Of a DNA stretch of 64,000 nt, positions 16,515 through 62,100 are shown piece by piece. Source of the stretch: Vanrija pseudolonga. Lineage: Eukaryota; Basidiomycota; Tremellomycetes; Trichosporonales; Trichosporonaceae. A program made the translations under genes and the position numbers. The notes beneath the pieces were generated by a model, which ran no database searches, was not told the DNA's origin, and was given only the letters and a program-made list of their open reading frames with translations. How positions within the stretch are numbered: position 1 is the stretch's first letter; each line of letters starts with the position of its first letter. The stretch lies in assembly GCF_020906515.1 (NCBI RefSeq), contig NC_085850.1, positions 4,030,001 through 4,094,000 of the forward strand. Direction: 5' to 3'.

Positions 16515-18754
16515 TCATTGACCGGCATTCATTGCTCGCTTGTAACCAGCTGCTCCGAAGCCGTTGGCTCCGGGGATCCAGGCAGTGGGCCACACCCAAG
16601 GCGGAGGGGACCATGGGGCAGCCTTGGTGGTCGTGGGCGGAGGGGGGACCGGCGCCTTTGTGGTAGTCGTTGGTGCAGGCGCCTTCGAGGTAGTCGTAGG
16701 AGGGGGAGGGGGAGGGGCGGCAGTCGTGGTCTGGGGCTTGGGGGTCGTGGAAACAGGGGGCGGAGCCGCGCTCGACGGGGGAGGCACCACGCTCGACACC
16801 ACGGGAGGCACGCTCGACACTGCAGGAGGAACGGACGCCGGGGGGCTCGACAGGACAGGAGAAGCCGAGGAAACGGGGGCAATGACGCTACCAATCGAAG
16901 CCGAGGCGACATTGCTGGGCACGGGGTTGCTAGCGTTGGTCACGGGCGGGGGAATGGGAGTCGTGGGGAGGGTACCGTTAGCGATGGGCACGACAGATCC
17001 TGATCCAGCGACGGGGAGGTCCTGAACAGGAGCGATGCTCTGCGTGCCGATCACACCGTCGCCAACAGTAATGTACTGGCCCTGCGAAGGCACGCCGTTG
17101 ACCACAATGAAGAGAAGAGCTGGGCCGGGGGCGATGATGGCAGGGTTGGGGGGGATCTGCGAGACGTGAAGGGTGAGGGCGCCGTCGGGAGTGGCAGTGT
17201 AGCTAGTCTTGAGCTGAACGTGGCGCTGACCCATGTGAATGCCGTGCGTGGCGAAACCACCACGGATAACAACGGCCTTGACCGACTGGGGCTGGGCGCC
17301 GTTGAGGTCGGCAGCAGTGAGGGCGACGTTGAACCAGTTGCCGCCGTACTTGAGCTGCGTGGGGAGGCCAGTCGGCTTGGGGCGCGGCTTGCCAAAGTAG
17401 TCGGGGTAGAAGTACTCGATGCGGCTGTCGGAGAAGTACTTGCGGTTCGCCTTGGACTGGTACGATCCGTTGGGGTTGGAGCCAGCGATAGCGACACTGC
17501 CGTCGGGGAGGAGCGTGGCGCTAGAGTGGTACATGCGGGGGATGGTCGACGAGCCGGCCGAAGACCACCTCTGGCCCTGGGGCTTGGAAGGGTCATAGTA
17601 CTTGGCCTCGAAGGCGGGAGGGTCGGCGAGCGACTCACCGACCGGCCACCCACTAAAAGAGTAGCCGGCGGTGCCCGAGAGGGCGCCGTTGACGAGGAAG
17701 AGACGTCCGTCGGGGAGACTGACAAACTGTAGGGTCAGCGCGGTCATGCACCACCCCAGCTTACCTCTCCCATAACGCGTCCTTGGTCCATCGAGTCCTC
17801 GGTCGTCCACGACTTCTCACCCTTGTCGGGCGAGATGGAGATACACGAGTTGTCAGACTTGAGCTTGGTGACAGCCTGCCCCAAGCTCCAGTTCGAGTTC
17901 GTCCCGCCACAGATGAAGACCCTCAGATCCCAGTTGTTGTCTGGGGTCTGAGGAAGAGAGGCCGATGCACCCGAGCCGGGGTACACGCGGACCGAGAATG
18001 GCACGTTGCTGAATCCGCGCGTCTCAACTCCCGCGTTGGGGTCGAACAGGGATGCCGTGTTGCCAGACTGGATGAAGAGCTTGCCGCTGGGCAGGAGCCA
18101 GGTGAGCGCGTACAGGTTGAGTGTCGTCGTGTCGGCGAGAAGCTGCATCTTCTTAGGAGCGCCGCGCGACGGGTAGAACTGTGGCGTGGTTAGTTTGCAA
18201 GCCCGATCAACCTCTCTGAACCCCACCTCGTACGTCGGGTTGTCGTACGCCCACGAGTTGACGTAAACCAGCGCAGTAGAACCTCCGATGATGATCGCCG
18301 AGCCGTCGGTGAGGGTCTCGACGGTCACGTACCATCTGTTGGTTGTGAGGGGCGGGCTCGACTCGTCCCAGTATGGTGTGCCGATACGGGGGTCAAGCAG
18401 ACGGATGGCCTTGCGGCCCTCTGCTGAACCAGTCTCGGGGCTCTGGCCGCCGACAACAAGGAAGCGTCCGTCTCCGAGCGACGAGCCTCCGGCACAGAAA
18501 GGGTTCTTGGCGAGTGTCATGGGGCGGGTTTGGCGGTTACCGAGGTCAAACTCGGCGGCCCAGATGGCCTTGCCGTTCACCTTGAGCGGGTTGTTGTTAC
18601 TCCTGTCCATGGTGTAGAGCTTGTTCTGAGAGCCGAGGAACATGATGAGCTGAGAGATGCCCTGGTCGGCAATGAGCTCAAACGTGCCCGGGGCGGGGTC
18701 GGCCACGACCGCCATGGCCGCGAGGAGCGACCAGAGGAGCTTGGTCGTCAGCAT
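16515..18754 (-). CDS. Glyoxal oxidase (AA5 copper radical oxidase)
   Basis: Oxidises aldehydes such as glyoxal, making hydrogen peroxide outside the cell. Exons 18754-18227, 18178-17765 and 17726-16515 give 717 residues; introns are 48 and 38 bases. Residues 1-18 are a signal peptide. The family's radical-site residues are present. Cys87 (NPFCAGG) and Tyr142 (RWYVT) are the expected Cys-Tyr cofactor pair, with axial Tyr380 and His381 (RMYHSSATLLPDGS) and His475 (FATHGIHMGQRH). The C-terminal DUF1929 domain is followed by a ~150-residue Ser/Pro/Thr-rich tail (PPPPPPTTTSK-like). Such a tail is often wall-associated, though no GPI signal is seen at the end. It stands alone between two long gene-poor stretches. 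Confidence 0.93.
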
Positions 18755-18829
18755 TGTCGGGTGTCGGGTTGTCGAGAGAGACGGATAGACAAGACACACA
18801 TGCGCATGGTAGCCTCCTCTCTCTCTGCC

Positions 18830-18835
18830 TTTATA
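18830..18835 (-). promoter_or_regulatory. TATA-like box of glyoxal oxidase
   Basis: TATAAA on the minus strand, 76 bases upstream of the start codon at 18754; position suits a fungal TATA element. Confidence 0.45.
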
Positions 18836-20183
18836 CATCTCCCCATGCCCACCACATCCCGTTGGAGAACACCGAACTCCCTCGTCAAGTTTGTGTTGTG
18901 GCAGGTTCCTTTGACCGTGACGGCCACAGTGCTTGCTTGACGTTGTGGCCATGCCCACTTGCCTGATACACGAGGCTGCATGGATCGCGGGATCTCGGAA
19001 CGCGGAAATGGCGCGTCGTCCTGGAGGCGGGATTGGGGCGTAGGAGACGCGGTCGACGAACTGATGGGACGAGACGCGTTTCAGGTAATTGTTTCCACGA
19101 AGCTTATTAGAAGGAAGTGACGTGAGTTTTGTCGATGTTTGCGGCCACAGGGTGGTGGGTATCTGTTATTTTGACGTCTATGGGAGCCTGCACACGGGCT
19201 GGAACCATCACGGGAGGGGTGCGACCGCAAGAGGGAGCGAAGATCCAGAGAGAGACCTGGGCATGCATGAGGTGATGCATTAACACGATTGACACGGACT
19301 CTCGTTGTCAGTGGTGCATAGGGTATCTGCGCCATTGAAAAGCCCGACATCGGCTCCAAGTCTGGTTGCGTTGTGACTCACCTCTTCACCCAACAAGTTG
19401 GACAGCCGACGCTCTACACGTCAGCACCAGCGCTGTGTGGCTGTACAGTGCAATCCGTTACAAACCACGACTACTAACCCTCCTAACCCGCCCAAACCCA
19501 ACCTTTGGACAGATGATCACGCAGATCAGGCAACCAGACACGGCGGGAACAGGGCATTCCTCGGTCCATGCTCGCCTCTGCGCGCGCAGCACCCACGATT
19601 AAACGCAGCACTCGACGAGCACGAGGCTTGGCGGCCGGCGGGTGGAGACGGTAGGCCAGTCTCGGCATCTCCACTGCATTGGCTTGGCTGTGAAACGTGA
19701 TGCTGGGTACACGGTCCATTCGGCGGGCCATCCGGCGAGCTGGGTGCCGGCATCCGCCTCTGGCTCCAGAGCACAAACACGCATAGAGGTGCGTCACGCT
19801 AGGGCTTCTGGAATTGGGCTTGGAACGTCTTATCGAGTGAGTGGCCCTCTGCACGCTGCTTGTTCGAGCGATTAGGTACACACAACGGCTCATCCAGATC
19901 CGCTGCAAACAGTGCACACGACAGGCTGCAACATCCACGCACCTCACAGCCGTACCCACGATCAGCACTGTCGTCCTGGCGCACTGACAAGTAGCCTTCA
20001 TCAGGGCCGGCCGCAACTCAACGAGTCTGCCGCCGAACCCAACCTTGTCGGGAAGCGCGCGGGACGCGTTCACGACGACACGGCCAAGCCGGAATCCTTA
20101 CAGCCTCCTGCCACGACGGGAAGTGCCGCGGGATGCAGTGGGCCAAAAGTGGCTATGGAAGTACAGTATTGGCAGCTGTGGCA

Positions 20184-20222: not shown

Positions 20223-21765
20223 CGGCCGTATCCCAATGGATGCGCGGGGTGAGGGTGCCTTGCGCGCAGTCCTGGCGGATCATTACGAGGCGAGGTATAC
20301 AGTTCGGTTTGTGGCAAGTGTGTTGATGAGGCATTGTTGTGGCTCTTTGGGGTGGGCAGGCTCGTCTCTATCCAGATGCAGAGTGCTACGAATTAGCTGT
20401 CGCGGGGAGGCTACGAGCGGAGTGAGGATGGGACGAGGAGGAGATGGAGTCATCGGGCGCGCCGAGTGAAGGCGGTACCGCGTAGCACGTTCGCTCTCCA
20501 ACTCCGATTGTGTCGCACAACAGGACACGCAACGCATTCTACAAATCTCTGCATAACTGTTTGGAGTCCTAAAATTGTCCATTCGACGCCGGCTGGGCTC
20601 GTGAGTGCAGGAAGACGCGGAAGCGGATGCGAAGCAATCGTTCTTTGCGGCATAAGTGTGCCGAAGACTTTGGACGTCTTCCCCGAACTTTCATCGCTCA
20701 GCACGCTCGTTCCATCGCAACCTCGACGTATGCAGCTCGATAATGTCGACGTAAAGTGAGGAGACAGCCATGATAGGAGCGAACTACAGAATGACCACAA
20801 CTCCCCCAAAGCCGCACGTGGTGGGTCACCAGGGCGAAGAAGATGTCGCAACCTCAACTCAAGCACACCTCTTCACCTACCTTCTGAGAGCAGCACTCTT
20901 CAGCAGTATCGTCGCCCTCGACCACGCATCGAACCTGCATGATCATGGGCTCGTGGGACAACATTAGGGTCAGCGACCAGCACTGTACCTTGCCGTCCTC
21001 CCGGCCCCGGCAATCTTCTTGCCCCTCCGCGCCGACCCGACGTTCAATGAGAACAGCTGCAACACGCTCTGCACGGAGGTGATGCTGAACTGGAACACGC
21101 AGATTGACCTCTCTGCTACCACAAAAACAGAAGTGGGGATGCTGGTGCATGCTGGCGTGCCCTCGCTTTTCTGGGGATGCGCCACCGTTGGCTGGGTGGC
21201 GTCATTGCGCCATCTCCGGATCTAGATCCCTTCGCTCACCGCCGCTGGCTCTACCATGTGGATCTTTGGGGGTCAGTTTGGTGTTTAGTTGGTCCAGCTG
21301 GCGTTGCAAGCATGACAAGAGGGAAGTGGTGGGGGCATCGAGCGAGCCGGCACTCAAGTATCGGCGCAACTGGAGTATGAGGGATCCGGCGCCTTTATGT
21401 ACCGCCTAGCCTTTGGCTGGCCGTCCCCTTCTCCGGCCGCTGGGAGCATTGGCCTTCAACCTGGCGTGCGCATCCCATAAGAATACGTTGCATATCTCGT
21501 CGGTGCTTCAGCTTCGATGCAGCGTCGTCGCCGTCACCGTCGTCGTCGTCGACACTGAACAAGGTCGACGGAGACGCAGCAGTGCAGCGTCTCTCGGGTG
21601 ACATTTCCGCCTCCGCCGCCAAGCGCCGGCTGTGCGGCAAGTGGAATTTCCAAGACGGCCGACTCGACCGGGACAGTCGCTACTCGCTCGACTCCGTCGC
21701 TTGCTCGCTTGCTCATCTCTGTCTTACATTGCTTCAATAACAACAACATCGCCATCACACGGTTC

Positions 21766-22670
21766 ATGCGACTCGCACCGTCGTTGATCGCCCCTACACG
21801 CCTGTTCGCTAACTCCTCTGCGCGCGCTACTCTCCCCGTCCACCCTCGGCCTTTCAACCACCTCCACCACCTCCACCCCCGCTCCATCTCAACAACCATG
21901 ACGGCCACCGCGCCCTCTCCGGCGCCGTACGAGCCCACCGCGGCCGCGACAGCGACACAGCAGACATCCACGGGCGTCAAGCTGACCGCACACAACCAGT
22001 ACGACGCGACACGGCTCGACCGTACCTCGCTCCCAGCGGACCCGCTCGACCTCTTCCGCGCGTGGCTTGCCGAGGCGCTCCGGCCCGCTCCGGGCTCGCC
22101 GTTCCCGCCCGTGCGCGAGCCCGAGGCGATGGTACTCTCGACCGCGACGGCGCGCGGTGTGCCATCGTCCCGTGTCGTGCTGCTCAAGGAGGTCGACGCG
22201 GACGGCTTCGTCTTCTTCACAAACTACAACTCGCGCAAGAGCGCCGAGCTGCAGGCCAACCCGTACGCTGCGCTCGCGTTCCACTGGCGCGAGGTCTCGC
22301 GCCAGGTGCGCGTCGTCGGCAAGGTCGAGAAGGTGTCGCGTGCAGAGAGCGAGGCGTACTTTGCTACCCGGCCACGCGGGAGCCAGCTCGGCGCGTGGGC
22401 GTCGGCCCAGTCGAGCGCTGTGGGCGAGGGCGCACTCGCCGCTGCCGTCGAGGACGCCGCCAAGAAGTTTGAGGGCAAGGATGTGCCCTGCCCCGAGCAC
22501 TGGGGAGGCTGGCGCCTGGTCCCATTGTGAGTTTGGCTGTTGGTGCTGATCGCTGACACCGCAGCGAGATCGAGTTCTGGGCGGGCCAGCCAAGCAGGCT
22601 GCACGACAGGTTCAGGTACACGCGCCCCGAGGCCGGCGGCGAGTGGGCCGTCGATCGCCTCGCGCCATAG
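21766..22670 (+). CDS. PDX3: Pyridoxamine 5'-phosphate oxidase
   Basis: FMN enzyme that oxidises pyridoxine or pyridoxamine 5'-phosphate to pyridoxal phosphate (vitamin B6 pathway). Exons 21766-22526 and 22565-22670 (38-base intron, CGCTGACACCGCAG end) give 288 residues. Family marks include [60 protein letters not shown] and the C-terminal [17 protein letters not shown], ending VDRLAP. A 44-residue arginine/serine-rich leader precedes a second in-frame ATG (21898, [13 protein letters not shown]), so a mitochondrial and a cytosolic form from two starts is possible. Identification is firm; the start is less so. Confidence 0.93.
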
Positions 22671-22941: not shown

Positions 22942-24842
22942 ATGGCTATGCCCCTCCCCTCGCCCAACACTGCTCCACCCGACGGCGCCGAGCCCGCTCC
23001 CGCCGCCAGCGCCGCCTCGCCGCCGCACAACTCGGTCTTCAACAAGCTCCTCTCCAAGGCCGGGCCGCACCTCGCCCCCCGGCTCCAGCACGCGCAGTCC
23101 AAGCTCACTGCGCACAGCTACGGCGCGCAGCTCGACACTGCGCTCCGCTCGTCGTCGTCCTCGCTCGAGGCCCGCGTCCGCCGCGTGTCGGGCCGCCTCG
23201 ACGCCGTCCATGCCGGCTGGGGCGGCAAGGTCGACGCCGCAGCGGACAAGTACGGCGCCAAGCTTGGCTCGCAGCTCGCCAGCGCCGGGATCGAGGGGCG
23301 CGTCGACTCGGCCGTCAAGCGCTTCGGGCACTCGCTCGGCGATTTCGAACACCGTCTCGGGTACGATGCGCCCGCCCCTGTCGCCGCTGGCCCAGAGGCA
23401 CAGCAGCCTCAGCAGCAGCAACAGCAATTCTACCCGCCACCACCTGGCGCTCCGGCGCGCAAGCAGCAGCAGCAGCAGCCGGAGCCACAGCAGCACCAAC
23501 AGCAACAGCAGCAGCTCGTCGTCGAGCCACCCACTGCCCCCAGCACCGTCAGCCCTGGGCCTTACGATTCACCCCCTGGCTCGCCGCCGCGGCCCGTCAA
23601 GCCTGTCGAGCCACGCCTCAACGAGCAGGTTCAAGGCCGGTTCGAGTCACCGCCCGGCTCGCCACCGCGGGTCGCGCTCGGGCTCGAGCACAAGCCGGCG
23701 CCTGAGACATCCACGACGCAGCCCGCACCCGCACCCGCACCCGCACCCGCACCCGCACCCGCACCCGCACATGCACCTGCACCCACCCCCGCGCTTCCAG
23801 AGCCTGCGCCAGCTCCACCCAGTACTTCTGTGCTCGCTCCTCGTGGTGGCGCTTCGCCTCCTCCCGTCGCTTCTCTATCTCTTCCTCTCGCTCCTGCCCT
23901 TCCTCCTCATATCGCTGGCCCTCCTACCCCCGGTGCTTCTGCTCCTCCCGCTCCTACTCCTGGCGTTCCTGGCAGCGCTGATTCTGGTGGTGTGGGACCA
24001 GCTCCTCCGCGTGCTCCTGGTGGTCCTCCCGCTCCTTCTGTTCATCCCTATCCCACTCCTTTCGTTTCTCCCGTTATCTACGACCCTCCGTCACCCCAGC
24101 AGCAGCACCATGCCGAGGGCACCCCCGCCCCCGAGGCTCGTCCTCCAGCGGTCGCAGTCACGGCCGCGCTCGCTGAGCTCCGTGTCGGCCCAGCTGGCGC
24201 CCCCGCGCTCGCTGAGCTCGGTACCGGCCCCGCCGACGGCGCTGCCAACGACGAGCAGGGACGCGTCCCCAGCAACGACAGTCACGGCGCTGTCCCCGCG
24301 CCCAACCCACTCGTCGCCGGGCTCGACGCCAACCCTGCGGCAGTATATCCCGTCCCCGGCGCTCCCTACGCTCCAAACGTCCACGTCCCCGACGCCGTCG
24401 TCCCTCCCGCCCCGCCCGCCGACGCCAACCCCACGGCCACGCCAGCGGTGCGCTCCACAACGCCGCCACCACGCCCGAGATCCAAGTCGGTGGTGGTGGG
24501 CGACTCGCGTGGTGGCCCGCCCCCGCCACGCCCGCAGCTCCGCAGCTGGACGTCCAACCCCGCCCTCAAGAGCCTCCCGCCCCGAGCCCGCCCCGCGTTC
24601 CCCATCTCGCCGGAGCCGCTGTGGTCGCCAATGTCGCCGGAGGAGCCAATCACCCCGTGGTGGGCGGCGTGAAGGAGGACGGCCAGTTTGATGACGCCGA
24701 GGGCGACGTGCCGCCTCGTAAGTTTGACCCCCGATCGAGCTGACCCCAAGCGCCATATGTTGAAATCGACGAGCACGGGCTCGCTCCCACCACCATCCCT
24801 CCCTCGGCGCGTCCCACGGGGGACACCAAGGCGAGGCCCTAA
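22942..24842 (+). CDS. PPPPY-tail protein A (Pro/Gln-rich, helical N-terminus)
   Basis: First of three tandem paralogues. Best reading: exons 22942-24447, 24546-24717 and 24751-24842 (589 aa). The N-terminal ~150 residues form an amphipathic helical domain (SVFNKLLSKAGPHLAPRLQH, LDAVHAGWGGKVDAAADKYG, GDFEHRLGYD). It is followed by a long Gln- then Pro/Ala-rich linker containing a hexanucleotide-encoded Ala-Pro repeat. The last intron (33 bases) splits the third proline codon of PPPPY, and the end reads VEIDEHGLAPTT then a short tail. The middle intron (24448-24545) is inferred: without it the frame stops at 24672, out of frame with the PPPPY exon. No known family recognised; PPxY ends typically bind WW domains, for example of Rsp5-type ubiquitin ligases (inference). 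Confidence 0.65.
23725..23766 (+). repeat. (GCACCC)7 coding hexanucleotide repeat
   Basis: Seven perfect GCACCC units inside protein A, encoding Ala-Pro repeats. Likely length-variable between strains. Confidence 0.9.
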
Positions 24843-25313
24843 GAATGTAGAGTACCTTGACATGTCTCGTAGTTGCCTTCTCATGTAGTTTACTATGCGC
24901 TCGCTGGTTCTGTGCCCGTCGAGAAGTGGGCGCCTCATCTTGGCACACGCACGGGTCAGCGCAGTCGAGTGATAAGTGACAACGTGAGCAAAGTGAGGGC
25001 GAGGAGGCCACCCTGTTTTTGGCACCTGGCACGTCCCGCCGAGCGCACATGTCTCCTCGCTCCACGCCGTTGCGAGGCGAGCTGTTGCCGTGCGAGCTGT
25101 CGCCGCGTAAGCCTCTGTGGGATAAGCCGTTGTCGAGGAAGTTGGTCGCACGCCGTCAGTAAGCTGATGACGGCCAAGCTCGCCATCCAACGTCAAGTCC
25201 TCCCTCCACTCCATCACCTCGCTCCCACCGCTCCCAAGCCGCTCGCCATCGCTGCCCACAGCACCACCGCGTCTTCGCCCGCCGTTCCGCCCGCATCGCG
25301 AATTGCCCCCGTC
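24843..25313. other. Spacer between the PPPPY paralogues A and B
   Basis: 3' flank of paralogue A and promoter of paralogue B. The frame of B is open upstream of its chosen start but contains a much less gene-like sequence. No other gene seen. Confidence 0.45.
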
Positions 25314-26199
25314 ATGGGCCACCACCGCAAGCACCGCGAGGAGGCCGACAAGGCCTCAGCCGAGGGGAGCAGCACCAGCAGCAGTGGGCGGAGCAGCAGC
25401 CGACACCGTCGGCACCGGCATGCTCCCAGCCCCCCGCCGCCGCTCACGCCCGTGTCTCCGCCTCTCCCTGCAGTGCCATCACCCAAGTCGGCCTCCCCAT
25501 CGCCCGTCCACATCCCACTACTCACCCTGCCCGCCCTCCCCCTCCCGGCGCTCGCCGCGCCCTCACCGCTATCAGCGAGCCCGACCGCGCCGGGGCCAAT
25601 CGAGCGCGCGCTCCAGACAGCAGGACACAGTCTCGACTACGCGCTGAGCACGGCACTCTCGGCGCACTCGCCGGCCTTTGCGAGCCGCCTCGGCCGGCTC
25701 GACGCGGCGCTCGTCCGCGCCGGCGAGGAGATGGACCGCACGTGGCCCGGCACGGCGGAGCGGGTCGGCTCCCTCCGTCGCGGGGTGGGCCGCGAGCTCG
25801 AGCGGTGGGAGGCCGCGCGCGCGCTCTGGGTCAGCGGGGGAGACGTGTCGCCATACACTCCTGTTGCGACTTCGTCGGGTGCGGACTCGTTGGTAACGGG
25901 CTCAGAGAAGGAGAAGCCTCTGCCGCCGCTACCTGGGACTGGGAAGGGCGAGGCCGCGCCGGATGAGGTCGAGGACGACGCGCAGAGCGTCATGGCCAAC
26001 CCGCCGCTCAGTGACAACGGCTCACGGAGCCCATCGGCGTGTGTTCTCGGCGACCACAAACGGCATGACGATGAGCCCAGCGAGGCCAGTGAGGACTGTG
26101 AGCCTTGTGAGCCTAGTGAGGAGCCTCCGCGTGAGTTGTGCCGTCGGCATCGCCTCTAGTTGTGTGCTGATGGTATGCCCAGCGCCGTATGAGGCATGA
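25314..26199 (+). CDS. PPPPY-tail protein B (277 aa)
   Basis: Second tandem paralogue. Exons 25314-26130 and 26183-26199; the last exon is only 17 bases and supplies PPYEA after the split proline codon. The start MGHHRKHREEADKASAEG is a basic histidine-rich leader; an upstream in-frame ATG at 25167 is less likely. A Ser/Pro-rich segment leads to the helical domain (ERALQTAGHSLDYALSTALS, RLGRLDAALVRAGEEMDRTW, VGRELERWEAARALW). An acidic tail with CEPCEPSEEPP precedes PPY. The intron sits at exactly the same codon phase as in A and C. No signal peptide or span. Function unknown. Confidence 0.7.
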
Positions 26200-26356
26200 T
26201 GTGATGGTCGTTGTAATCGAGAGAGTTGCCAGAGTAGATCTTGACGTGGCTTGTAATGAATGCGGTGTTGTCGCGAGCACTGCACTGCGTCATGCGTCAC
26301 CCAGTCGCCACCACGTTTCAGCCTCGCCCGCGGCATGCACCCACTGCCCTGCACCC

Positions 26357-26364
26357 ATAAATAA
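26357..26364 (+). promoter_or_regulatory. TATA-like box of PPPPY protein C
   Basis: ATAAATAA lies 50 bases before the start codon at 26414, in an otherwise GC-rich promoter. Confidence 0.45.
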
Positions 26365-26413
26365 CAAAAGCCGTCGTCGGGCAACCGTCTCTCCCTCCTT
26401 TGCATCACTCGCA

Positions 26414-28527
26414 ATGTCGTACCAGCAGCAGCAGCCGCCAGCTGGCGCAGACGCCTACAACTACGCGTACCAGCAGCAGCCACAACAGCAGCAGCAGCCA
26501 CAACAGCAGCAGCAGCACGCGGCGCTGCCGCCGCCGACATCACCACCGGCCGAGCAGCCGCCCGGCGCCTGGCCAAACCAGGACGCCTACGGCGCGCTGC
26601 CAGCACAAGGCGAGCGGCGCGAGTCGGCGGACCGCTCGTTATTCTCGCACGTCCCGCCGAGCTTCCGCGTCGACAGCCAGCAGCTCAGCGGGTGGGGCAC
26701 GCGCATCGACCAGGCGGTCGGGCAGGCCACGTCCGGCCTGGACCGCTTCCAGCCGGGATGGGGCCAGCGGCTCGACCCGTCGCTCAGGCAGGCGAGTAAC
26801 CGCCTCGGCGCGGCCTTCTCGAGCTTGGGCAAGCGGCTAGACCAGCACTGGAGCCAGGACCCGTACGGCCAGGGACCGAGTTACCCCCCTGGCCAGTACG
26901 GCGGAAATCAGTACCCCCCGCCGCCTGGCGGTCCGGGCGGCGCGGCCGGCGCAGCGCAGCAACCCGCTACCGCCGCGTCACAGCAGCCAGCCCAGCAGCC
27001 TCAGCCTGCGCCAGCGACGCAGTTCACTGCCCAGCCGCCCGCAGCTCCGGCACAGCAGTACGCCGGCGGTCTGCCCGTCGTCGGCTCGCCGCCGCCCGCG
27101 GCCCCGCAGCCCCAGCCAACACAGTACGCCCAAGGCGTGCCGGTGCTCGGATCGCCGCCGCCGCCGACGTCTGCCTCTCCCCCGCCAGCGACAGCATACC
27201 AGGCGCCAGCGGCAGCGTACCAGCCCCCCGTGTCGACGTATGCGCCGCCGCCACCGTCACAGTCGCCACTACCGACCACCGCGGCGCCGGGTGCATCCCC
27301 AGCCGCCTCAGCGGTGCCCGTCGCCGCTGTCGCTGGTGTCGGAGCGCTGGCAGCGGGAATGGGCGCGATGGCTATCTCGAGCACCCCGGCGCAGGCTCCA
27401 GCCACCACCGTCTCACCGCAGGCTACAGGGTATGCCCCGGCAGCGCAGTACGCCGCGTACGGCCAACCGGCGGCGCCTGCTCAACCCGCCGCCGCTGTGT
27501 CGCCCCAGTCTACAGGATACACACCAGCTGCAGCAGCCGCAGCGTACGCCGGCTATGCCCAGCAGTCTGCTGCAGCCTCGCCCCAGGCCGCGCAGGCGTA
27601 CCAGTCCCCTCAGCCCGCACTGGCACCAGAGCCCTCGGCACACGCGTACGAGTTTGAGCAGGCAGCGGCGACAGCGGCCGCGGCACAGGCACCTGCATCT
27701 GCACCTGCGGCCCAGCCGTGGCAGCAGCAGCAGCCAGCGCCCCAGCAGCCCCAGCAGCCTGGCTGGCCGCAACAACAGCAGCAGCAGACATGGCAGCAGC
27801 CAGCCCAGGCTCCGCCCCCGGAGCAGCAAGGAGCTCCGGCTCAGCAGCAGTGGCATGACCCCGCACAACAGCAACAGGCTGCCACAACTCAGCCAGGATG
27901 GGGTCAGGCGGCCTACGCCTCGACATATGCAGCGTACGGCCAGTCACCGTACGCTGCAGCTCCGGCTGGACAGGCACCGCAGGAGCAGGGCAGCTGGGGC
28001 AAGCCAGCAGGCGCAGCAGCCCCCGGTTCACCTCCTCCAACCACCACTGTCCCAGCGGCGCCACTCACAGCCCCTACGTGGCAGCAGCAGCAGCAGACGT
28101 ACCAGCCTGGCCCACTGCCGACAGTGACGCCTATGGTGACGACATTGCCAGTTAACCCTGCTTATGCGTCCGGTCCACCTGTCCCAGACGCGTCCACGCG
28201 TCCGATCGCGTCGTCATCGTCGGCTTCCCAGCCACTGCCCTCGCCGCCGGTCGCCTCGTCAAGCACGGCACCTGCGCCCGCACCGAGCACGGCCTCGGGC
28301 TTTTACCCGCCCGAGAAGTGGACGTACAGCCAGTCTGGCGCGGCGGCTGCGCAACCGACAGCCGGAGGTCCCAGCACGCACCATGTCGTCCCCGACGGCC
28401 CCGAAGCTGTGAACGAGCTCCCACCACGTAAGTCTCCGATCGCGATGCGTGCTGATCGGACCGCGCAGCCCCGTACGACCCCGGACCGCTGGCGCGCTCT
28501 GCGCCCCCGACCGCACCCCCGCGATAG
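26414..28527 (+). CDS. PPPPY-tail protein C (690 aa, Gln/Pro/Ala-rich)
   Basis: Third tandem paralogue. Exons 26414-28427 and 28469-28527 (41-base intron, phase 1 within the proline codon before PPY). It starts MSYQQQQPPAGADAYNYAYQ and then has a helical segment with two GWG repeats (GWGTRIDQAV and GWGQRLDPSL) and LGKRLDQHWSQDPYGQG. About 480 residues of low-complexity Pro/Gln/Ala/Tyr sequence follow, with recurring QPTQYAQGVPVLGSPPPP-like blocks. The end is NELPPPPYDPGPLARSAPPT and a short tail. The tyrosine-spaced, prion-like composition suggests a disordered or phase-separating region (inference). The helical domain and PPPPY end tie it to A and B. Confidence 0.75.
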
Positions 28528-35772: not shown

Positions 35773-38700
35773 ATGGTGACGACTGGCGCGGCAGCCCCGC
35801 GCGCGGCCGGCACAAACAACACTAATAGCGGCGTCAACAACAACATCACTACGGCCCCGGCGTCGTACCCGCCTGCCGCTCCACACGCCGCTGCAGAAGA
35901 CAAGGCGTCAACGACAACGGCCAACGACGAGGAGAAGGGCACCCTCGCGTCCCCGCGCCGAGACGAGAAGGCCTATGCCGAGTCCGAGGACGAAGACGAG
36001 AAAGATGGCGCGGACGGCGCGGCAGGCGGAAGGCTGCGAGACCTAGGCCAAGGCCAGGCCGCGGAGAGCTTCAAGCGCGAACATTGGTGGTGAGTGGCAC
36101 GAGTGGGGGGCGTAGATGGCCGAGCCTCGGCGACTGCGACAGCAAGTGATGGGCAGGAGAGGGATAGATGCAGAGCCCGGATCAAACCGCCAAGAGTGCT
36201 GCGCAGATGCGCATTGGTTTCGGGTGACCCGACGATAGCGCGCTCCACGGCCTGATCAGTGACAGAGGTGCTGACAACAACGCAGGCAAATATGGCGCCC
36301 GCGCAACCCACCACCGCCGCCGAGCAAGTCGTTTGACGATGCGGCGGAGATCCCGCTCGCGACGGCCAACATCCTCTCGGCGCTTACCTTCCACGTGAGT
36401 GTGGCCCCCCGGCCTTTGCTGACAATCAGTGGGTATCGCCCATCATGAAGACGGGTTATCAGCGGCCGTTACAGGCGACCGACCTGTGGAAGATGGATCA
36501 CTCGCGAGAGGGTGAGTAGGGGCCGAGGCCGAGGCAGTGCTGACGACCAGCCGATTACCTCTCGGATCGGTTCCTTGCCAACTTGGAGAAGCGGCAGAAG
36601 GCAGCTGCGGAGTGGAATGAGAAGCTGCCGACCGTTGTGGCGCCGTGGACGACGCGCACAAAGTGGTCGTTCACCGCCGCGACAAAACATCACCTGCCCC
36701 CCGAGTTTGCAGCGTACGGCAGTGACAAGAGCTATGCCGCGCGCAAGGCGACGCTCGAGGCCGAGTGGCGCGGGCACAGTGGCAAGAAGAAGGGCAGCAT
36801 CACCTGGGCGCTCAATGACACGTTCCCCAACTTTTGGTGGGCAGGCGTGTACAAGCTCTTTGCGGACGAGGCGCAGCTCATGTCCCCGCTGCTCGTCAAG
36901 GCACTGATCAACTTCAGTAAAGAGAGTGAGTAGGATCCGTAGACAGGCGGGCGCTGACCACAGTGTACCTCGGGAACCACCACGAGGGCAAAAAGCCCAA
37001 CATCGGGCGCGGCATCGGCATGGCTATCGGCATGTTCTGCCTCGCCATCATGCAGACGCTGTGCCAGCACCAGTTCTTCTTCCTGTCCATGCAGACGGGC
37101 GCCATGTCGCGCGCGGCCCTCATCTCGGCAGTGTACAAGCGCTCGCTCCGGCTGTCGGTGCGCGCGCGCTCCAACATTCCCAACGGCAAGCTCATGGCGC
37201 ACCTGTCGAGCGATATCAGCCGCATCGACTACTGCGCCCAGTGGTTCCACGCCATCTGGACCGCCCCGATCCAGCTCATCGTGACTCTCATCCTGCTCTG
37301 CCTCCAGATCGGCCCCTCGGCCATCGTCGGCTTTTCGCTCTTCATCATCCTCACCCCGCTCCAGACGTACATCATGAAGCTGTCCCTCATGGTGCGCAAA
37401 AAGTCCATGGTCTTCACCGACGGCAGGTCAAAGCTCCTCCAGGAGATCCTCAGCTCGATGCAGATCATCAAGGTGTTCACCTACGAGCTGCCCTTCCTCA
37501 AGCGCCTCGAGTTCCTCAGGAATATGGAGATGAAGTCGGTCCGCAAGATCGCCTACATCCGCGCCGCGAACATGAGTCTCGCGTTCAGCGTGCCCGCCCT
37601 GGCGACGGTCCTCTCGTTCGTGACGTACACGTCGACGCACAGGAATCTCGATCCCGCCATCCTCTTTACCGCCCTTGCCTTGTTCAACCTGCTTCGCCAG
37701 CCTCTCCTATTCCTTCCGCGTGCGCTCTCGACCTACGCCGACGCCAAGAACGCCGTGGAGCGTCTCACAGACGTGTTTGAGGCCGAGCTCATGGAGGAGA
37801 AGGACATGGTCAACCCCAACCTGGACGTGGCGATCCGCGCAAAGGGCGCAACGTTCCAGTGGGCGTCCATCCCGGAGGTAGATCAGATTGTGGAAGGCAA
37901 GGGTGGCAAGGGCGGAAAAGGTGGCAGGGGCAAGAAGGACAAGAAGGGTAAGACTCCCGCCAAGACCCCTCCCAAGACTCCCCCTGTCCAGGATTCCGAC
38001 GCCACTCCGGCCGAAGCGCGCGAGCCGTTCAAGGTCGAGGACCTCAACCTTGAGATTCCTCGCGGGCGCCTCGTTGCCATCGTCGGCCCTGTAGGCAGCG
38101 GCAAGAGCAGCATCCTCCAGGGCCTCCTGGGCGAGATGCGCACCTTGTCTGGAACAGTCGAGTTTGGCGGCCGCGCGGGCTACTGCCAGCAGTCGGCATG
38201 GATCCAGAACGCAACATTGCGCGACAACATTGTGTTTGGGCAGAAGTGGGACGAGAGCCGGTACTGGCAGTGCGTTGCCGACGCGTCGCTACTTGCCGAC
38301 CTTGAAATCCTCCCAGACGGCGACCTGACCGAGATTGGCGAGAAGGGCGTCAACCTCTCCGGCGGCCAGAAGCAGCGTGTCAACATTGCCCGAGCAATGT
38401 ACTTCAACTCTGATATCGTGCTGTTCGACGACCCTCTCAGCGCTGTCGACGCGCACGTGGGCAAGGCGCTGTTCAACGAGGCCATTCTCGGTCTCCGTAC
38501 TCGCGGCAAGACGGTCGTGCTCGTCACCCATGCGCTCCACCTGCTCCCCCAGGTCGACTACATCTACACAGTCGGAAATGGCCACATCGTCGAGCAGGGC
38601 ACATACGAGAGCCTCGTCAGCTCTGGCGGCGCGTTCAAACGCCTCATGGACGAGTTTGGCGGCCAGCAAGAGGCCAAGCAGGAGGAGGAGGCCGCAGACG

Positions 38701-40862
38701 AGGAAGAGGCCATCGCGGAGATTCCGCTCGAGTCGCCGCTGGACGAAAAGTTGACCAGCGAGCGTGTGGCAAAGTTGACGAGGAAATCGGTCGGCAAGGC
38801 GGCCGGTACTGGCAAGCTTGAGGTGAGTTACTATGGTGGTCTGCCGAGCTGACAGCTCCAGGGCCGGCTCATGCAGTCTGAAGTCCGCAAGACGGGCTCG
38901 GTCGGGCGTAAGGTTTACGCCGCGTACCTCAAGGCTGGTCGTGCGGCCGTCACGCTGCCCCTCATCTTGGTGTTCGGCATCGGCATGCAGACGGCGTCGG
39001 TGCTGTCAACCGTCTGGCTCACGTGGTGGGAGGCCGACTCTTTCCACAAGTCGATGGGTTTCTACCAGGGCATGTACGCCTTCCTCAACATCTCCCAGGC
39101 GCTCATCTTCCTCCTCATGGGCATCGCCATGGCTGTCCTGTCGTACCTCGCCTCGAAGAACATGTACAATGGCGCGCTGCAACGCGTCATGTTCAGCCCC
39201 ATGTCCTTCTTCGACACCAACCCCACGGGTCGTATCATGGGCATCTTTGGCAAGGACGTCGACATGATGGACAACCAGCTCGCCGACGCGTTGCGAATGC
39301 AAGCTATCACGCTGTTCTCGGTGAGTCGCGCAATGCTGAGGTGGGCATCGCTGACGTTTGCAGATGGTCGGATCTGTGGTCATTATTACCGTCTTCTTCC
39401 ACTACTTTATCATTGTGTAAGTGAGCCTCGGGTGGCACCAGCTGACGTCACAGTATGTTTGTTGTCGGCCTGGGATACCTCTACTTTGCCCAGTACTACC
39501 GCACCTCGGCACGGGAGATGAAGCGCCTCGACTCGATGCTTCGTTCACTTTTGTATGCGCACTTTTCGGAATCGTAAGTCGCATTGCCATGCCTGAGGAC
39601 GACTGCTGACATTGCCCAGGCTGTCGGGCCTCGCGACCATCCGCGCATACGGCGAGACATCGCGCTTCATCAAGGAGAACAGCTGGTACATGGACCTCGA
39701 GGACAGGGCGTACCTGCTCACCTCGGCCAACCAGCGCTGGCTTGCAGTGCGCCTCGACTTTCTCGGCGCCATCCTCGTCTTCTGCGTAGCTGTCATGTCA
39801 GCGGCAGGCGGTGCCGGTCTCACGCCGGCGCAGATCGGCCTGTGCTTGACCTACATGACTCAGATCACCCAGCTTCTGGGCATGCTTACACGCCAGTCGG
39901 CCGAAGTCGAGAACAACATGAACGCCATCGAGCGCATCATGTACTACTCTGACGGCGGCCTTCCCCAGGAGGCAGCATACAACGTCGAGCCTGAGCCGCA
40001 GAACTGGCCAAGTGCGGGTAACATCAAGCTTGAGAAAGTCGTCATGTCGTACAGAAAGGGCCTGCCGCCGGTCCTCAAGGGAATGTAAGTGTGGCGAGTG
40101 GCATCCATTGGCGGTCGCTGACACCCAACCAGCTCGGCAGAGTTCAAGAGTGGCGAGAAGATTGGCATCATTGGCCGTACCGGTGCAGGAAAGACATCGA
40201 TCACAGTCGCGCTGTACCGCCTCGCTGAGCTCACGTCGGGCAAGATCACGATTGACGACATCGACATTTCTAGCCTCGGTCTCCAGACGCTGCGCTCGCA
40301 CATTGCCATTATCCCACAAGACCCAGTGCTCTTCAGCGGCACGCTGCGCTCCAACCTGGACCCGTTCAACCTGTACGACGACGCGAGACTGTACGACGCG
40401 CTCAAGCGCGCCTGTCTTATCGACGAGACGGGCCACGACGGGGCCGACCCAGCAGCGACGCGCACAGCACGGTTCACGCTCGACATGCCGATCGACGACG
40501 AGGGCTCCAATCTGTCGATTGGCGAGCGGAGTCTTGTCAGCCTGGCCCGCGCACTCGTCAAAGACTCGCGTATCGTCGTGCTCGACGAGGCCACCGCGGC
40601 CGTCGACCTCGAGACGGACGCCAAGATCCAGGAGACGATCCGGCGCGAATTCGGCTCCAAGACACTCCTGTGTATCGCGCACCGGCTGCGCACTATTATT
40701 TCATGGGACCGCATCCTCGTCATGAACGCCGGCGAGATCGAGGACTTTGGGACCCCGCTCGACCTGTTTGACGCAGGCGGCCTGTTTAGAACCCTGTGCG
40801 AGAGGAGCCATATCTCGCGCGAGGAGATTACAAGGGCGAGAAAGGAGGAGACTTTTGCGTAG
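35773..40862 (+). CDS. ABCC (MRP) multidrug transporter, Yor1-like
   Basis: Full-length ABC exporter with TMD1-NBD1-TMD2-NBD2 and no extra N-terminal TMD0, as in yeast Yor1. Ten exons: 35773-36089, 36286-36394, 36430-36511, 36551-36925, 36964-38822, 38862-39320, 39364-39416, 39454-39573, 39620-40084 and 40133-40862 (1522 aa). NBD1 has Walker A GPVGSGKS (about residue 670), signature LSGGQKQR and Walker B LFDDPLSAVD, with Asp where catalytic Glu is usual, as is typical of ABCC NBD1. NBD2 has GRTGAGKT (about 1292), signature LSIGERSL and canonical VVLDEATAAVD. The N-terminus is long and acidic (~100 aa). A Gly/Lys-rich insert (37896-37990) lies just before NBD1. Likely plasma-membrane efflux of organic anions or drugs; substrate unknown. 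Confidence 0.92.
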
Positions 40863-60259: not shown

Positions 60260-62100
60260 ATGGCGGCACTCGGGCGGCTGGGCACCGTCGCTCGGGTCAG
60301 AGCAATACCATCAGCCTCACGCCCCACTGCCCGCCGACACAAGTCGCACAAGCCCCTCGCCCCGCCGCCAACCAACACCGTCCAAGCCGAGCTTCGGCGG
60401 ATAGGCGAGCTCCGCCGGCGCGCAGGGGCGGAGAACAGCCGTGTCGCCAAGGCGGCCTTGATCGCCGAGTACTCTGACCTTCGGGACCTCCTCGAGCTGT
60501 GCGTTGCGCCAGGCCAAGAGAATTCGCTAACGCCGGCGGCAGTGTGTACGACCCCTCCACGCGGTTCGGGGTCAAGTCGGGTACGGTGAAAGAGTTCCTC
60601 GGCGGACAGTGGGACGGCGACGCGCCGGCGTCGCTGAGCGAGCTGTTCCGCTCCATGGCGGCACGTGAAGCTGGCGATCCCAGCGCACGGGGCGCCGTGG
60701 CGAACTTCTGCGCCGCCCACGGGATAGTGGCCAACGGGCGGGTCGACGAGGCCCTGTGGGACGAGTTTGCGCGGCTGCTCGATCGGAACTTGAAAGCGGG
60801 CTTCAACCAGGCCTTTCTGTCCAAGGTGCCGTGGAAGGAAGACGGCAGGAAGAAGAAACGGGCAGTGACGCCGACGATAGTCCCGGCAACGGACGACGGC
60901 ATCCCGCGCTTCTCGTGCGCGCTCGGCAAGCCGATCCATCCGCCCTTCGACGAGGTCTTCTCCCCGGGCGCGCGAGCCGCCAAGGTACACACGAGGTGGT
61001 TTGCGTCGCGCAAGCTCGACGGCGTGCGGTGCCTCGCGCTTGTGGACGTGCGCGTGTCGACCCGGCGCGCAGAAGTGCTCGACGTGCGGTTCGTCTCGCG
61101 GTCCGGAAACGAGTTCACGTCGCTCGGCCTGCTCAGGGAGCAGCTGATGGTGCTCGGTGACGTGCCGGGATTCCGGAAGTTGGTCAACCGGGATACGGCG
61201 TTGCGGACGGAATCTGGCGGGGAGGTCAAGCGCCTCGTGCTTGATGGCGAGGTGGCCCTCATGCGCGACAAGACGCCCGAGGAGGCGCAGAGCAGCGGCG
61301 GCGACTGGGCGACGCCGGCTATGCCAGGCGACGGCGTTGAAGACTTCAACGAGACCGTGTCGTGGGTGCGCAGGCTGCGCGACCAGGTACCCGACCCGCG
61401 CTTCTTCCTCTTCGACGTGTTGACCTGGAGCGAGGTTGCGTCCGGCCAGGGGGAGCGTGTGTTCTCCAAGCGGACGGCGGAGGCCGAGGCGCTGGCGGTC
61501 GGCCTGGCGGAGGTGCTTAAGACGAAAGGCGTCGATACGCCGTTCGTGCGTGCTCTGCGCCAGAGGGAGGTGACGGCCCGCGCCGAGGTCGAGGATTTCG
61601 TCGAGCGCGCCACGAGGGAGGGGTGGGAGGGGATCATCCTCCGTGCTGATAGGGGATACAAGGGCAAGCGGATGTGAGTCACGACGTGCGCGTATAGTAG
61701 GAGGGAGCTGACCCACTGCCCCAGTGCCGACATCTACAAGTGCAAGCGGTGGCAGGACGCAGAGTACACCGTCGAATCCGTCGACACGTCGCGTCAGCGC
61801 CTATCAGTGGACGGGGTATACGGCGAGCACGACGCCTGCGCGAACGTGTGGATCACGCATGAGGGCGTGCGGGTCAGCGTCGGGACGGGGTTCACGACTG
61901 AGCAGCGGCTGCGGTACGGCCGGCATCCCGAGGACATTGTGAGTGGGCGACAGTGGCTGGGCTGACGAGCGTAGATTGGAAAGCAGATCACGGTCGAGTT
62001 TTTCACCGAGTCGTCTGGCGGGGGGAGGGGCAAGGAGGAGAAGAGTTTGCGATTTCCGCGCGTTAAGGCTGTGTGGGAGGAGGGCAAGCGCAGGATTTGA
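60260..62100 (+). CDS. Phage-type ATP-dependent DNA ligase with possible mitochondrial leader
   Basis: Exons 60260-60498, 60543-61673, 61725-61938 and 61975-62100 give 569 residues. The nucleotidyl-transferase motifs are in order: motif I SRKLDGVRC with Lys about 237, motif III-like FRFFLFDVLTW region, VLDGEVAL, motif IV EGIILRADRGYKGK and motif V YKCKRW. A short OB fold (WITHEGVRVSVGTGFT, DIIGKQITVEFF, SLRFPRVKAVWEEGKRRI) follows, as in small phage and bacterial ligases (DNA_ligase_OB_2 type). The large DNA-binding domain of nuclear Lig1/Lig4 is absent. The N-terminus (MAALGRLGTVARVRAIPSAS, then RRHKSHK) is basic and alanine-rich, like a presequence. A role in mitochondrial DNA repair is an inference. 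Confidence 0.85.

Follow-up and report, generated by a model that had tools for sequence, protein, structure and literature searches.

Three tandem loci of Vanrija pseudolonga sharing a PPPPY motif split by a predicted intron, and their possible link to an Rsp5-type ligase

The split PPPPY motif and the genes that carry it

A 64,000-nucleotide stretch of the Vanrija pseudolonga genome (C2:4030001-4094000, hereafter the window; the genome comprises 24.9 Mb on nine contigs) holds three tandem plus-strand loci, named here A, B and C, each with a PPPPY motif split by a predicted phase-1 GT..AG intron. At all three loci the predicted last intron cuts the third proline codon, and acidic residues are found upstream of the motif. 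The coordinates (Table 1) confirm the preliminary description of the window, which had proposed the three loci, the position and phase of the cut and last exons of 92, 17 and 59 bases. The predicted introns share a GTRAGT donor and a CTGAC or CTGAT beginning 11-17 bases upstream of the intron end, the 3' end being CAG in B and C and AAG in A.

To evaluate how common this arrangement is, the whole genome was scanned with the pattern CCNCCNC-GTNNGT-N(20-50)-AG-CNCCNTAY. Three matches were obtained in 24.9 Mb, all of them at the A, B and C loci, within 3.8 kb and on one strand, and none was obtained with the reversed pattern used as a control. When the intron was slid one codon earlier or later within the motif, the genome gave 0 and 0 matches (1 and 2 for the reversed-pattern controls), and no split-motif match was found in 150 simulated windows in which the trinucleotide make-up was kept. 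Allowing gaps of 50-80 returned 2 matches on other contigs (controls 0), with the poor donors GTCCGT and GTCGGT, which we take as chance. The position and the phase of the intron within the motif are identical in A, B and C. Since the genome-wide matches are three, clustered and on the same strand, with none for the slid versions, there is good support for the common descent of the loci, which had been deduced earlier from the intron position that they share. The observation of the split motif in the preliminary description is right and, in the DNA, goes far beyond what chance would give; as a protein feature it holds for two of the three genes.

In B and C the reading frame runs from the ATG to the exon bearing the tyrosine, and both translations carry a PPxY given splicing of the predicted introns. 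Spliced B would have 277 residues and end in ...SEEPPPPYEA; spliced C would have 690 residues and end in ...NELPPPPYDPGPLARSAPPTAPPR (PPPPYDPG...). In each protein the terminal PPxY is the sole [LP]PxY. Among 2000 shuffled versions of each, a PPPPY fell within the last 40 residues in 0.05% for B and in 0.4% for C. In contrast, the PPPPY behind gene A is out of frame, so that the claim of three PPPPY-ending proteins does not hold for this gene. The translation of its open reading frame (ORF) contains no [LP]PxY, has a conserved end reading RSKSVVVGDSR...SPMSPEEPITPWWAA and finishes with ...PITPWWAA at a TGA (24670-24672) located 45 bases upstream of the intron. The split motif lies at 24711-24758, in a frame that reads VKEDGQFDDAEGDVPP and continues across the intron as PPYVEIDEHG....

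Table 1. Features of the three loci, in window coordinates.
Feature	Position	Strand	Description
Gene A ORF	22942..24672	+	576 aa from start ATG to stop TGA; N-terminal domain ~residues 30-138, predicted helical; Pro/Gln/Ala linker
Gene A, part of linker	24227..24433	+	V. albida protein matches a frame other than that of the 576-aa ORF
Gene A, out-of-frame stretch	24669..24717	+	reads VKEDGQFDDAEGDVPP + C; abuts intron
Gene A, predicted intron	24718..24750	+	33 bases, phase 1, GTAAGT...CTGAC...AAG
Gene A, last exon	24751..24842	+	92 bases; completes PPPPY, then VEIDEHGLAPTTIPPSARPTGDTKARP, stop; out of frame with the gene A ORF
Gene B, exon 1	25314..26130	+	helical domain ~residues 90-174, acidic stretch, PP
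Gene B, predicted intron	26131..26182	+	52 bases, phase 1, GTGAGT...CTGAT...CAG
Gene B, last exon	26183..26199	+	17 bases; ...PPPPYEA stop
Gene C, exon 1	26414..28427	+	amphipathic GWG/RLD region ~residues 73-146, long Gln/Ala/Pro linker, NELPP
Gene C, predicted intron	28428..28468	+	41 bases, phase 1, GTAAGT...CTGAT...CAG
Gene C, last exon	28469..28527	+	59 bases; ...PPPPYDPGPLARSAPPTAPPR stop

Upstream of the cluster, a plus-strand ORF at 21559-22530 gave a match to pyridoxamine 5'-phosphate oxidase (PNPOx_N). Adjoining ORFs at 16518-19165 (minus strand) match a glyoxal oxidase N-terminus and a galactose-oxidase-like early set domain, and are probably one copper radical oxidase gene. The window also contains an ABC transporter at 36930-38849 (membrane region and ATPase) and an ORF at 60478-61674 in which a domain of ATP-dependent DNA ligases is recognised.

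N-terminal domains and relatives of the three proteins

The preliminary description had given the three proteins an amphipathic helical domain at the N-terminus. The mean hydrophobic moment of the C domain was exceeded by 0 of 1000 shuffles, while p values of 0.014 and 0.041 were obtained for B and A, and the strongest hydrophobic periods of C and B lie at 98 and 105 degrees, respectively. The AlphaFold models are all-helical, with a mean predicted local distance difference test score (pLDDT) of 50 for A and a pLDDT of 67 for B, in which three helices are modelled. The amphipathic helical character is therefore a fair statement for C, where it is clear, and for B, where it is weaker, but is uncertain for A, whose strongest period lies at 163 degrees. 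From this amphipathic periodicity one may guess that the helices bind membranes. Apolipoprotein and perilipin possess amphipathic lipid-binding helices, and the period of C is near that of an 11-residue repeat; they differ from the present proteins in that no profile match was found for A, B or C and in that the period peaks at 105 degrees in B and 163 in A.

A protein search with A (895 candidates, E up to 10) gave one relative, the uncharacterised hypothetical protein Q8F55_004106 of V. albida (P0001). The searched domain is 78% identical, the last 81 columns of the BLASTP alignment show 85% identity and both proteins end in PITPWWAA, whereas Q8F55_004106 has 410 residues compared with 576 and follows another frame over the linker part at 24227-24433. 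A joined-query protein search (7995 candidates scored) returned the window's own B and one B relative, P0003, a protein of 283 residues from a 5.5-kb contig. Between B and P0003, 82 of 85 positions are identical in the helical domain, as against 74 of 87 in the flank before it and 57 of 87 in the flank after it (gap columns, 7, 0 and 1 respectively for the flank before, the domain and the flank after, being set aside, and the borders having been drawn after viewing the alignment). Near the intron, the upstream stretch is identical at 8 of 10 positions and the nine codons read from the intron at 8 of 9. P0003 retains most of the acidic stretch of B, the PP and the splice donor, and the exon beyond this donor could not be read. 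Both P0003 and the window's own B record (P0002) read through the donor as PPREL..., which indicates that the donor of B and its phase have been kept.

The protein search with the C domain gave no match at E 0.001 or better (295 candidates). No relative was found from a named genus besides Vanrija by a search that depends on common words of five residues and on comparable protein lengths, and that may miss distant or differently annotated proteins. The Pfam scan of the three proteins, in which A was entered as its ORF and B and C were cut before their last exons, gave 0 families up to E 1. Within the limits of these searches, in which the three protein searches yielded, besides the window's own proteins, only the V. 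albida protein and P0003, the data fit the earlier statement that no described family has this layout, and the tandem family is best read as so far seen solely in Vanrija-like yeasts.

Structure searches were also performed. With the B model as query, the fold search of the PDB gave 38 matches at E values of 10 or lower, and no match reached 0.001; B had 0 hits against PDB sequences up to E 1. The other hits against PDB sequences, also up to E 1, were taken as chance: three for P0001 (two huntingtin fusions and a weak one), three weak ones to beta-lactamases for the C domain (best E 0.29) and two weak ones for residues 1-150 of A (best E 0.072, a phage tail-tip protein). Six places of the genome that matched A, B or C weakly (C6:1551114, C3:2028907, C6:503181, C4:390718, C2:2169166 and C4:931381; E 0.045-2.4) were set aside as chance as well, and no PPPPY was present in ORFs of at least 120 aa around C6:1551114, the sole one of these places that was read. 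When P0001 was compared with the window by tblastn with filtering off, it hit A and many Pro/Gln-rich places, C among them; since unrelated places gave similar scores, no weight was put on this result.

Candidate WW-domain partners and the tail of gene A

We propose, with moderate confidence, that A, B and C are an old tandem family with an ancestral acidic-PPPPY tail, in which B and C dock on an Rsp5-type ligase and A most likely has no tail. In the ancestral copy, a helical domain at the N-terminus would have been followed by a disordered Pro/Gln-rich linker and, at the C-terminus, by an acidic-PPPPY tail receiving its tyrosine from a tiny last exon, and an old tandem duplication in a Vanrija-like yeast would have given rise to the family. 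B and C would still make the tail, whose PY motif would most likely dock on a WW domain of an Rsp5-type HECT ligase. The helical domain, possibly lying on membranes, could bring the ligase to a place or a cargo, or could itself be a ligase substrate. A would have kept a helical domain, together with its own conserved C-terminus, with a stop preceding the PY exon, and its tail would most likely be gone.

Several results weigh against this proposal. The likeness between the N-terminal domains is weak, local alignment scores being 4.7 (A-B), 5.9 (A-C) and 4.0 (B-C) standard deviations (s.d.) above shuffles and reached by 0.2%, 0 and 0.4% of 1000 shuffles, respectively. When A is replaced by its V. 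albida relative, the score with B is 2.8 s.d. (2.1% of shuffles) and that with C 5.3 s.d. (0). Six-frame genome searches were run with the whole of A and with the domains of B and C, and none of them picked up the other two, so that the common N-terminal domain claimed in the preliminary description is weakly favoured by the alignments but not recovered by the genome searches. Taken as the maximum over 18-residue stretches, the moment shows no excess over shuffles (p 0.13-0.16), the strongest period of A is not helical, and the A and B AlphaFold models are both of low confidence. No relative of C was found among the 295 candidates of the search with its domain or the 7995 scored in the joined-query search. 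Lastly, Rsp5 is not the sole candidate partner, since the genome has other WW proteins.

Ten WW profile matches were found in the genome, nine of them above the Pfam cut-off. An Rsp5-type ligase is encoded at G000:C3:1203656-1204192, with three WW domains and a HECT domain in one protein. The PY-motif adaptors and substrates of Rsp5/Nedd4 include the alpha-arrestins, Bul1/2, Ear1, Ssh4, Bsd2, Tre1 and NDFIP. B and C resemble them by a C-terminal PPxY in a Pro-rich tail, after acidic residues, in a genome which has such a ligase, and differ from them in that each carries a single terminal PPxY. Arrestin N and C domains, as in the ART adaptors, are not recognised in A, B or C, for which the Pfam scan up to E 1 was empty. 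The role of WW ligand, possibly of an Rsp5-type ligase, suggested in the preliminary description is therefore plausible for B and C, for which the best reading is that of Rsp5 adaptors or substrates, but on the present ORF of A it lacks support for that gene, whose PPPPY is out of frame.

The tails of B and C could also bind another WW protein, and would then belong to a scaffold rather than to a ubiquitin ligase adaptor. The number of WW matches is in favour of such a partner, as is the presence of a small protein at G000:C3:317633 (L005 865-1660 minus), which has one WW domain, a PPAY of its own and a Gly/Gln-rich part, and which we take to be Wwm1-like by its layout. We nevertheless consider this rather unlikely. 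In a budding yeast network study, an enrichment in PY motifs is seen for WW partners; of the 124 proteins binding Rsp5 WW domains, 27 carry such a motif, and 9 PY proteins of the network did not bind Rsp5 (PMC1557994), which makes Rsp5 the commoner partner in that yeast.

Gene A has probably lost its PPPPY tail, given that its own conserved C-terminus and the stop upstream of the PY exon make it most likely that the protein has none. Either the tail was lost and the exon left as an untranslated relic, or it is reached by an unusual route. It is improbable, in our opinion, that the frame breaks of A stem from wrong base calls in the assembly, with A really continuing into PPPPY. The V. albida protein fits two frames of the window in the linker and returns to the frame of the A ORF from about 24427 up to the stop, which implies indels, perhaps compensating ones, an unrecognised intron or an error in the linker of A, and could reflect small indels in one of the two, at the level of the DNA or of the annotation; but the V. 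albida record shows the stop at the very residue where A has it.

A second product of gene A reaching the PPPPY tail, by a -1 ribosomal shift at the stop or by a non-canonical splice, seems less probable still. In its favour, the stop is followed by an open frame, the split PPPPY of A is intact and its last intron looks sound. On the other hand, no convincing intron linking the ORF to the PPPPY exon was found among 111 formal GT-AG candidates with donors from 23300 on; among the 40 of these that were listed, the best joining donor agrees with the consensus at 6 of 9 letters but lacks a branch-like site, and the next one agrees at 5 of 9 and has such a site. No slippery heptamer was seen by eye, and the V. 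albida protein stops at the same place. Finally, although the three proteins are very Pro-rich, it is hardly credible that the PPPPY tails are ordinary low-complexity sequence with a common intron by chance, given that the split motif is unique and clustered and that the genome scan found it in no unrelated genes.

Possible intron retention and meaning of the family

The intron within PPPPY might act as a switch, retention giving a protein lacking the tyrosine and splicing giving a WW ligand, so that the splicing state would set the recruitment of the ligase. With the intron retained, B would end in PPRELCRRHRL and C would read 42 other residues after PPR. In P0003 the retained reading is kept at 8 of 9 residues and stops at the same place, a conservation which is partly constrained by the donor site and concerns two close relatives. 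We regard such a switch as doubtful.

In the open-licence literature nothing was found on PPPPY in basidiomycetes, and no Vanrija genome paper on the family appeared among the titles listed; the matches listed for PPxY, WW domains, alternative splicing and exon skipping were, by their titles, on animal topics.

The tandem family described here would extend the set of PY proteins available to the Rsp5 ligase of basidiomycete yeasts by a family restricted to one lineage. It would also offer a clean case in which a shared intron lying within a linear motif reveals descent where the protein sequence hardly does. If the putative switch were true, a docking motif would be turned on and off by the retention of one small intron, in a fast-evolving family.

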